DNA of 64,000 bases. Origin: Methylovulum miyakonense HT12 (GTDB lineage Bacteria; Pseudomonadota; Gammaproteobacteria; Methylococcales; Methylomonadaceae). The translations under genes and the position numbers were made by a program. The stretch is taken from the NCBI RefSeq assembly GCF_000384075.1, contig NZ_KB913025.1:498238-562237 (forward strand), in the 5' to 3' direction. Positions 24,252 through 26,665 of the stretch are shown piece after piece. Position 1 is the stretch's first letter. Every line of letters starts with the position of its first letter. The notes below the pieces were generated by a model that was given only the letters and a program-made list of their open reading frames with translations, was not told where the DNA came from and searched no databases.

Positions 24252-24344
24252 TACCGCGTGTTCGGCACTGCTTGGACATGCACCCTGCGATACGAAGCCC
24301 GTGTCGTTTTACCCACGCAACACACTTTATTAGGAAGACACACC

Positions 24345-24974
24345 ATGAAAACAAATAATAAATCCCCATTAATCGCCGCCATGGGCGTAGCGATCATGTC
24401 ATCTTTTTCAGCCACTGCGAATGCTGAAGCCAACCCGTTCGGCATGACAGAATTATCATCAGGCTATATGCAAGTTGCTGAAGCCAAAGCCCCGGAAATG
24501 AAATGTGGCGCCTCCATGAACATGGGCGGTGCGGCAAAAACCGCCGAAGGCGCTTGTGCCGGTGCCAAGACACCAGCCAAAACCGCAGCAAAAGCCACTG
24601 AAGGCAAATGCGGCGACATGATGGATGGCGACAAAATGAAAAAAGGCATGGAATCCGCTTGCGGCGCCATGATGAAAGGCAAAGAAGGTGCTTGCGGTGA
24701 AATGATGAAAGGCGAAAGCATGAAAGGCAAAGAAGGCGCTTGTGGTGCCGGCATGAAAATGCCCGAAGGCAAATGTGGCGCGCAATGCGGTGAGGCCATG
24801 AAAAACTGTGCCGCAGTAAAAGCTAAAGAAGGCAATTGTGGTGCGCAAATGAAAGGTTGCGGCGAAGCCATGCAAGGTTGTTCTGAAATGATGAAAGGCA
24901 AAGAAGGCGCTTGCGCGGCTACTGTAAAACCTGCCGCTCCAGCCGCTGCCGTCCCAGCTCCAGCCAAAAAATAA
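24345..24974 (+). CDS. HvfA/bufferin-like secreted RiPP precursor with multiple EGxCG repeats
   Basis: 209 aa. Sec signal peptide 1-27 (ending ATANA), a short spacer, then a low-complexity Met/Lys/Gly/Ala/Cys region with 13 cysteines (54, 71, 89, 106, 117, 133, 144, 148, 155, 165, 172, 179, 190) and an Ala/Pro tail. Seven EG[A/K/N]C motifs start at E68, E86, E114, E130, E141, E162 and E187, and two weaker ones at E51 (EMKCG) and E103 (ESACG). The EGKCG pentapeptide is the site that HvfB/HvfC-type enzymes convert to oxazolone/thioamide groups in copper-binding peptides. The next genes are those enzymes. Known precursors are, as I recall, about half this length with few motifs. The ATG at 24345 has AGGAAG before it and gives the signal peptide. 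Confidence 0.88.
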   Translation: MKTNNKSPLIAAMGVAIMSSFSATANAEANPFGMTELSSGYMQVAEAKAPEMKCGASMNMGGAAKTAEGACAGAKTPAKTAAKATEGKCGDMMDGDKMKKGMESACGAMMKGKEGACGEMMKGESMKGKEGACGAGMKMPEGKCGAQCGEAMKNCAAVKAKEGNCGAQMKGCGEAMQGCSEMMKGKEGACAATVKPAAPAAAVPAPAKK

Positions 24975-25002: not shown

Positions 25003-25036
25003 AGGAGGATATAACTTTATATCCTCCTTTTCTTTT
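25003..25036 (+). terminator. Strong intrinsic terminator / attenuator between precursor and modifying enzymes
   Basis: Perfect 11-bp stem (aggaggatata / tatatcctcct), loop ACTT, followed directly by TTTCTTTT. It lies 28 bp after the precursor stop and 20 bp before the start of the DUF692 gene. Such a site would let the small precursor be made in large excess over the enzymes by partial read-through. Confidence 0.85.
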
Positions 25037-25056: not shown

Positions 25057-25908
25057 ATGGACACAATACAACAACGCCTTAACGGGGCGGGTTTAGGTTT
25101 ACGCCGCAGCTTCTTGGGCCAAGTGATCGAAACGCCACCCTCGGCTGTTGATTTCTACGAAGTCGCGCCCGAAAATTGGATCACCATGGGCGGCAAACTC
25201 GGCAAACAGTTCCGGGCCATGACCGAACGCTTCCCCTTTGTGTGCCATGGCCTGTCATTATCCTTAGGCAGCACCGACCCGCTGGATGAAACGTTCGTCC
25301 GCGCCGTCAAAGATTTTATGCACGAACACCAGATGAAACTCTACAGCGAGCATCTGAGTTATTGCAGCCAAGACGGGCATCTGTACGATTTGCTGCCGAT
25401 CCCGTTTACCTCAGAAGCCGTCAGCCATGTCGCCGCACGGATCAAACGGGTGCAGGACATCCTTGAGCAAAAAATTGCCATCGAAAACGTCTCGTATTAC
25501 GCCGCCCCTGGCCAAGAAATGACCGAGCTGGACTTTTTCAACGCCGTCGTGCAAGAAGCGGATTGTGATGTCCTGCTGGACGTGAACAATATTTACGTCA
25601 ATAGCGTCAATCACGGCTACGACCCCGAAGCCTTCCTTAAGGCCATCCCGGCGCAACGCATTGTCTATGCCCATATTGCCGGGCATTATGTCGAAGCCGA
25701 TGATTTTTTGGTGGACACCCACGGCGCGGAAATTATCGACCCCGTCTGGAAGCTGCTGGGCAAAGCCTACGAATGGCACGGCGTGTTCCCGACCTTGCTG
25801 GAACGTGACTTCAATATCCCCGAAATGGCGGAACTGGTCCGCGAAGTCAACACCATCAAATCCATACAAAACGCATGGCAACAACACCATGCCCAACAAT
25901 CCGCCTAA
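25057..25908 (+). CDS. MNIO (DUF692) RiPP-modifying iron enzyme, HvfB/BufB-like
   Basis: 283 aa. Multinuclear non-heme iron oxidase family (TIM-barrel, DUF692), like MbnB and HvfB, which oxidise cysteines of precursor peptides. Metal-site signatures are intact: FVCHGLSLSLG (H64), SEHLSYC (E98, H99), IENVSYY (E143, N144), DVNNIYVNSVNHG (D175, N178), YAHIAGH (H206, H210), DTHGAEI (D220, H222) and LERDFNIP (E249, D251). It follows the Cys-rich precursor and overlaps the DUF2063 gene, the standard HvfABC/BufABC order. Its likely partner is the downstream protein and its likely substrate the precursor at 24345. Confidence 0.92.
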   Translation: MDTIQQRLNGAGLGLRRSFLGQVIETPPSAVDFYEVAPENWITMGGKLGKQFRAMTERFPFVCHGLSLSLGSTDPLDETFVRAVKDFMHEHQMKLYSEHLSYCSQDGHLYDLLPIPFTSEAVSHVAARIKRVQDILEQKIAIENVSYYAAPGQEMTELDFFNAVVQEADCDVLLDVNNIYVNSVNHGYDPEAFLKAIPAQRIVYAHIAGHYVEADDFLVDTHGAEIIDPVWKLLGKAYEWHGVFPTLLERDFNIPEMAELVREVNTIKSIQNAWQQHHAQQSA

Positions 25909-26665
25909 CACCGTGATGAAAGCCAATTTTGCCGCCAAACAACGCGAATTTGTCGCTTACATCCGCGACCCCGGACACAATCCCGCACCCGCTGACGTAA
26001 GGCTTCCGCGCATTGATATGTACCGGGAACTTTTATTCAATAACATCAATAATTTTTTGGCCAGCAATTTCCCGGTGCTTCGGCAAATCATTGATGATGC
26101 CCAATGGGAAGCGTTGGCACGGGATTTTTTCGCCCGGCATGCGTGCAGTTCGCCGTATTTTTCCGAAATACCTGAAGAATTCTTGGCCTACCTGCAAAAC
26201 GAACGCGATAACGCCGATGATTTTCCCTTTATGCTGGAACTTGCGCATTACGAATGGGTGGAAATGGCCGTTGCCATTGCCAAAGAAGTGACGCCCGCCA
26301 ACAGTTTGCCGCCAGACAATTTAGCCGGGCATAGGATCAGCTTGTCGCCAGTCGCTTGGCCTTTGGCCTACCAATATCCCGTACATAAGATCGCCCCGTC
26401 GTTCTTACCCACTGAACCGCCCGCACAACCGACTTTTCTGATCGTCTACCGTAACCCGGAAGATGATGTCCAGTTCCTTGAAATAACCCCAATGACCTAC
26501 CGCCTATTGGAAATTTTGCAAGGCAATGGCCAATCGCTTGCCACGGACTGCTTACAGCAAATCGCCACAGAAATGCAGCACCCCCAGCCGGAGATGATTG
26601 TCACCGCTGGCCTGCAGATTCTGGAAGGCTTGGCGGAAAAGGCGATCATCGCCGTCGAGGGTTGA
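25889..26665 (+). CDS. DUF2063 RiPP partner protein, HvfC/BufC-like
   Basis: 258 aa from the ATG at 25889, which overlaps the DUF692 gene by 20 bp; an ATG at 25916 is an alternative start (MKANFAAKQREFVAYIRDP). The N-terminal DUF2063 domain contains RMYRELLFNNI-like helices (here RIDMYRELLFNNINNF), DFFARHACSSPYFSEIPEEF and LELAHYEWVEMA. The C-terminal winged-helix-like part ends near residue 258. In MbnC/HvfC-type systems this protein binds the precursor leader and delivers it to the oxidase. No DoxX-family gene (HvfD) follows. Confidence 0.9.
   Translation: MPNNPPNTVMKANFAAKQREFVAYIRDPGHNPAPADVRLPRIDMYRELLFNNINNFLASNFPVLRQIIDDAQWEALARDFFARHACSSPYFSEIPEEFLAYLQNERDNADDFPFMLELAHYEWVEMAVAIAKEVTPANSLPPDNLAGHRISLSPVAWPLAYQYPVHKIAPSFLPTEPPAQPTFLIVYRNPEDDVQFLEITPMTYRLLEILQGNGQSLATDCLQQIATEMQHPQPEMIVTAGLQILEGLAEKAIIAVEG

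Follow-up and report, generated by a model that had tools for sequence, protein, structure and literature searches.

A methionine-rich captophorin-type precursor encoded beside HvfB and HvfC in the methanotroph Methylovulum miyakonense HT12

The described systems closest to the locus reported here are the captophorins of the Lys-Cys group, namely fontiphorin (FonABC), oxazolin (HvfABC) and gonophorin, which have in common an exported-type precursor, an adjacent multinuclear non-heme iron-dependent oxidase (MNIO) and a DUF2063 partner. The product ring is a 5-thiooxazole (-4 Da per site), the oxazolin structure having been revised via alkylation-assisted nuclear magnetic resonance; characterised captophorins generally bind copper, a seven-site captophorin took up to four Cu, and fontiphorin aggregates with Cu(I) (PMC13097082). 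Precursors of the class span 31-506 amino acids (aa) with up to 58 cysteines, and some genomes hold several precursors with one MNIO pair (PMC12452194). Long, many-site precursors are known from Buf_EGKCG/oxazolin type 1, which is built of 17-residue repeats (PMC12452194), and a cluster for a copper-binding ribosomally synthesized and post-translationally modified peptide (RiPP) is conserved across the entire genus Microbulbifer (PMC12538549). Methanobactin (MbnABC) likewise links the MNIO superfamily to copper and methanotrophs. Here, we describe a 209-aa multi-site precursor and its adjacent HvfB and HvfC genes in Methylovulum miyakonense HT12, found in a stretch of 64,000 nucleotides (the window; positions 498238-562237 of the single-contig genome of 4,687,143 bases).

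The two enzymes beside the precursor were assigned by curated models. The MNIO matched PF05114 (E-value 5e-108) and scored 448.8 bits against the HvfB model NF003818 (cut-off 360), and its partner scored 314.8 bits against the HvfC model NF050145 (cut-off 142) and also matched DUF2063 (PF09836) and NGO1945_C; the HvfABC-type cluster proposed from the letters of the DNA (hereafter, the original prediction) was thus borne out. The best solved relative of the MNIO is 3BWW, with which its His/Asp/Glu motifs align; we take these shared motifs to be the iron ligands. Both enzymes are encoded singly in the 4.69 Mb genome, which holds one PF05114 protein and one HvfC. A methanobactin neighbourhood was considered and rejected, because this only MNIO reached 52.7 bits against the MbnB model TIGR04159 (cut-off 325); the idea of a system working beside methanobactin therefore falls away, and the long precursor, its signal-like N-terminus and the other ring expected further separate the locus from methanobactin.

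The original reading of the precursor gene itself was exact. The protein contains 24 methionines and 13 cysteines, of which seven lie in EGxC motifs (Cys 71, 89, 117, 133, 144, 165 and 190), two in the near-motifs EMKC (Cys 54) and ESAC (Cys 106), and four (Cys 148, 155, 172 and 179) outside every E-x-x-C motif. Its N-terminus is hydrophobic with an AxA site near ATANA, as judged from visual inspection and a hydropathy rule, and the proposal of a multi-site precursor with an export-type N-terminus, probably a copper ligand, is supported. The frame is under purifying selection (dN/dS 0.069-0.107 against three relatives, with dS near saturation in two). Because the HvfA equivalog model NF050188 gave 21.9 bits (cut-off 95), the precursor is filed by its sequence in the captophorin/Buf_EGKCG/oxazolin class rather than as an HvfA in the strict sense. 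It shares the repeated E-G-x-C-G sites, and its MNIO the RR/DF residues, with the Lys-Cys captophorins; it differs from them in its 209 aa, a core that is mostly EGAC, a CGxMMKGxEGxC unit and the several cysteines outside E-x-x-C, and its operon has no DoxX/HvfX gene, both DoxX matches of the genome lying elsewhere (the FonA, HvfA and NgoA sequences themselves were outside our alignments). Unlike Buf_EGKCG type 1 (PMC12452194), it lacks a regular repeat of 17 residues bearing two EGKCG, and its low-confidence structural model has no beta-helix; the internal repeat is an imperfect 33-nt (11-aa) array of 2.5 copies. The Microbulbifer cluster (PMC12538549) belongs to a different lineage and is likened here by description, not by sequence.

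To place the core in context, three sets of loci were compared. The family set (Methylomonadaceae) comprises the window and 109 further loci, 78 of which (window included) carry a precursor-like open reading frame (ORF) under looser rules, 75 being distinct after duplicate removal. A stricter finder gave a candidate in 73/110, again with the window, one of which (L005) has no EGxC, lies beside a 41%-identical MNIO and hence falls outside the captophorin class. The finder misses some precursors (genome G286 has none at locus L167 and one at L222). Of the 110 loci, seven have an MNIO of a type other than HvfB (34-43% identity), the available upstream sequence is too short in several, and in some genomes precursors sit elsewhere. 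The class set (Gammaproteobacteria) holds 69 loci, 29 best-scoring new ones and 40 chosen over-cut-off rows, and so is not random; 53 have a precursor-like ORF. The order set (Methylococcales) consists of 20 hand-chosen precursors from other families. In 12 chosen rows of aligned family and class precursors, the leader residues N-P-F, E-L and G-Y were invariant, and a rough leader pattern matched 76/78 family precursors and just 28/53 class ones, which suggests a looser leader in the class.

Length does not distinguish the window precursor, which had been called unusually long: at least 209 aa are reached by 24/78 family ORFs (23/75 distinct), at least seven EGxC occur in 19/78 (18/75 distinct), and the published range extends to 506 aa and 58 cysteines (PMC12452194). 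The 53 class precursors are all shorter than 209 aa (80-186 aa for those beside HvfB), and 26 of them have at least seven EGxC. The difference lies in the make-up of the core. Median values for family (78) versus class (53) were 184.5 versus 122 aa, 9 versus 7 cysteines, 5 versus 6 EGxC, 1 versus 6 EGKC, and a methionine fraction after residue 26 of 0.114 versus 0.033. EGKCGEGKCG is present in 41/53 class precursors. The unit CG.MMK[GN][KMNH]EG.C[GA] was found in 72/78 family precursors (69/75 distinct), 0/53 class precursors and 0/20 precursors of the order set; the family loci with it include that of Methylobacter tundripaludum SV96 (L109), and the six without it that of Methylotuvimicrobium buryatense (L077). 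A methionine follows within the next four residues after 493/732 family cysteines versus 65/396 class cysteines, and Cys106-Gly107, Met109-Gly115 and Cys117-Gly118 are invariant in a 28-row family alignment. High methionine alone is not unique to the family, as 13/53 class precursors have at least 8%; within the order, 11 precursors of family f2 (107-137 aa) have fractions of 0.057-0.103, and five canonical ones of family f176 about 1%. By these sequence comparisons, a core rebuilt from EGKCG into a methionine-rich CGxMMKGxEGxC marks out a new variant, specific to this lineage, within a class already known. Since the family set is one clade, this counts as a lineage trait and not as many independent events; for the same reason, the Mann-Whitney value obtained for the family-class comparison exaggerates independence. 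The claim of a new copper-handling system was accordingly too strong, a new variant being the fitting description. The refuting observation named with the original prediction was half borne out: homologues of similar length and motif number are widespread and belong to a characterised class, but literature searches of open-licence papers returned neither a characterised member nor a printed description with this methionine-rich core; a word search of PMC12452194 gave no hit for "methionine" and a single one for "methanotroph", among the references.

The system is nearly universal in the family. A precursor was detected in 147/151 family genomes, including 128/128 of good quality, with a profile (A2) whose building set included family members, which favours finding them; an MNIO of any kind was present in 145/151, HvfC in 146/151 (143 over the cut-off) and HvfX over the cut-off in 71/151. 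Precursor matches occurred in 65/81 genomes of the order, and HvfB passed its cut-off in 93/274 genomes of the class, two of them from the family. In the order, family f175 had a match in 0/10 genomes, and every other family sampled in at least one. Some genomes show up to eight precursor-profile matches, possibly including gene fragments; in the order survey, several matches per genome could be pieces of one gene. The nearest named relatives by HvfB are Methylovulum metagenome-assembled genomes (identity up to 90%). As had been suspected, the host is a methanotroph, the genome carrying a pmoA-type AMO (ammonia monooxygenase) gene about 365 kb from the locus.

We consider it quite probable that the locus is a captophorin operon without hvfX, whose HvfBC-modified, Sec-exported and probably disordered precursor is a multi-site Cu(I) buffer for a cell dependent on particulate methane monooxygenase (pMMO). 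HvfB and HvfC would convert most of the cysteines, probably 7-12 of the 13, into 5-thiooxazoles ahead of export, and not into the oxazolone/thioamide groups first proposed, the revised chemistry covering oxazolin as well (PMC13097082). The modified chain would then be exported by Sec and would bind several Cu(I) through its ring thiolates, perhaps aided by the 24 methionines, buffering copper in the periplasm or, if secreted, outside the cell. Many copper ions at up to nine sites, as originally envisaged, appear too many in view of the four Cu of the seven-site relative (PMC13097082). Since this methionine-rich system is nearly universal in the family, it probably serves chiefly to buffer copper as it moves through the pMMO-dependent cell.

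The modification is made plausible by comparison with FonBC, for which the RR and DF residues of the MNIO are tied to the Lys-Cys substrate group (PMC13097082). R16, R17, D251 and F252 of the window MNIO correspond to R15, R16, D249 and F250 of FonB in a pairing based on motif and position instead of an alignment with FonB, and G.RR and ERDF are each kept in 102/103 HvfB proteins of at least 70% identity to that of the window. FonBC accepts EAACG and EGACG sites; position 3 may be Ala, Arg or Thr, the residue following the cysteine must be Gly or Ala, and positions 1 and 2 tolerate most substitutions other than Pro and, for position 1, Arg, although one single Glu change impairs turnover (PMC13097082). 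Under a rule derived from this five-residue tolerance, and thus measured on another enzyme, 12/13 precursor cysteines pass; by hand count, 8/13 are preceded at position 3 by K or A, whose acceptance has been reported, the Asn, Gln and Gly cases lying beyond the reported residues.

Several observations weigh against this explanation. The RR/DF and FonBC-rule results are transfers from another enzyme, and the tolerance of the window enzyme itself may differ. Only 2/7 EGxC motifs of the precursor are EGKC, and its HvfA score stays far below the cut-off given above. The AlphaFold model has a mean predicted local distance difference test (pLDDT) of 46.1 and a predicted template modelling score (pTM) of 0.20; it is compatible with disorder but too poor to separate disorder from an unseen fold. 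In 16 chosen loci from other genera (L186-L201), a long methionine-rich or a short precursor stands apart from HvfB and HvfC, with no HvfB, HvfC, ECF (extracytoplasmic function) sigma or close HvfX gene in the fetched flanks, so linkage is not obligatory. Finally, we found no modification, copper-binding or expression data for the window precursor or for any with this core, although expression data may already be in print.

The same modified product could instead serve mainly in copper delivery or storage for pMMO, methanobactin-like but within the envelope, and not in defence against excess copper. The near-universality of the system in a copper-dependent family keeps such a supply role open: HvfC over the cut-off and the precursor are found in nearly all family genomes against about a third of class genomes for HvfB (a rough comparison, as the models differ), the single MNIO is not MbnB, and methionines closely follow most family cysteines. 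On the other hand, there is no importer gene among the neighbours scanned, the pmoA-type gene is distant, and the f176 precursors, from another family of the order, are methionine-poor. We regard supply as the main role as rather unlikely, and rank copper buffering ahead of it because the relatives that have been characterised are connected with copper excess.

A second precursor in the genome bears on what HvfBC acts upon. It has 105 aa with canonical EGKCG, passes the NF050137 cut-off and lies 2.1 Mb from the window precursor; it adjoins an HvfX gene (over the cut-off), and ECF sigma and zinc-finger anti-sigma genes converge on it. No maturase genes were found near it, and with a single MNIO and a single HvfC in the genome, the second precursor, if modified, needs the window enzymes in trans; by gene content, the window HvfBC may serve both. 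Of eight chosen relatives inspected at the corresponding position, five retain HvfX alongside an additional HvfB and HvfC, one with ECF, anti-sigma and precursor genes (L202) and four without a precursor by pattern (L203, L206, L207 and L209; L206 is of the same genus); in the other three, the retrieved stretch contains HvfX but neither HvfB nor HvfC, namely L204 and L205, both of the same genus and with a precursor, and L208. The simplest reading is that the second HvfB and HvfC were lost in part of the genus. Could HvfBC then mainly serve this canonical precursor, leaving the window protein a partly or wholly unmodified Cys/Met-rich metal sponge? The diverged core motifs of the window precursor would fit, but 78/110 family-set loci have a precursor close to the MNIO (several others having too little upstream sequence), FonBC accepts EAACG/EGACG (PMC13097082), and all 28 aligned rows preserve the Glu and Gly of the EGxC within CGxMMKGKEGxCG, so that we hold this to be improbable. 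Even less probable is a binder of another metal or reactive species, for although gold and oxidative stress trigger related clusters (PMC12452194, PMC13097082) and an ECF sigma/anti-sigma pair adjoins the second precursor, characterised captophorins generally bind Cu (PMC13097082).

The remaining features of the locus are collected in Table 1. The precursor gene is followed, after 82 bp, by the HvfB and HvfC genes. Among the neighbours scanned, an endonuclease-III-like and a phosphorylase gene lie upstream and a PA3496-family gene downstream, with no copper gene. The hairpin and T-rich run after the precursor gene are possibly a partial terminator that would give more precursor than enzyme, a possible stoichiometry control. 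Terminator-like sequences occur here in 36/78 family loci versus 37/234 mononucleotide shuffles and, modestly above background, in 14/53 class loci versus 26/159 shuffles (15/78 and 6/53 by a strict perfect-stem test), and so are not universal. Directly upstream of the precursor (window 24280-24330), inverted repeats such as TTCGATACG....CGTATCGAA are found, as in many relatives (19 aligned, 78 scanned, 36 aligned); run on the 36-row alignment to look for a conserved RNA structure at this place, RNAalifold returned no pair, and Rfam gave no match within the window.

Table 1 Features of the precursor locus in the window and of the second precursor locus
Feature	Position	Strand	Details
Precursor (captophorin/oxazolin-type, HvfA-like), 209 aa	24345..24974	+	signal-peptide-like N-terminus, leader EANPFGMTELSSGYMQVAEA, Met-/Cys-rich core
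First-to-last Cys stretch (all 13 Cys)	24504..24914	+	7 EGxC, EMKC, ESAC, 4 others; includes CGAMMKGKEGACG
Hairpin, perfect 11 bp, then T-rich run 25029-25036	25003..25028	+	between precursor and HvfB genes
HvfB-family MNIO (DUF692), predicted maturase	25057..25908	+	PF05114, NF003818; R16-R17, D251-F252
HvfC (DUF2063, PME type 1), predicted partner	25889..26665	+	PF09836, NGO1945_C, NF050145; start uncertain, 25889 or 25916
Second locus (short precursor, HvfX/DoxX, ECF sigma/anti-sigma pair)	L184 1501-1815, 878-1465, 53-553, 540-794	-, -, +, +	~2.664-2.667 Mb of genome

To our knowledge, the way in which methanotrophs that lack methanobactin store and traffic the copper for pMMO is an open question. 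Going beyond the copper buffer favoured above, we raise tentatively, as a rather speculative extension, that the family-wide methionine-rich captophorin forms mixed Cu(I) sites of thiooxazole thiolates and methionine thioethers, an envelope reservoir that would charge or protect pMMO in species without methanobactin, with one HvfBC maturing both precursors, the second, HvfX-linked one in trans. A predicted copper-binding RiPP precursor with its own methionine-rich core, found in each of the 128 good-quality genomes sampled in one methanotroph family, is a concrete and testable candidate; its study would reveal the extent to which MNIO substrates can depart from EGKCG and whether a single enzyme pair handles two unlinked substrates.
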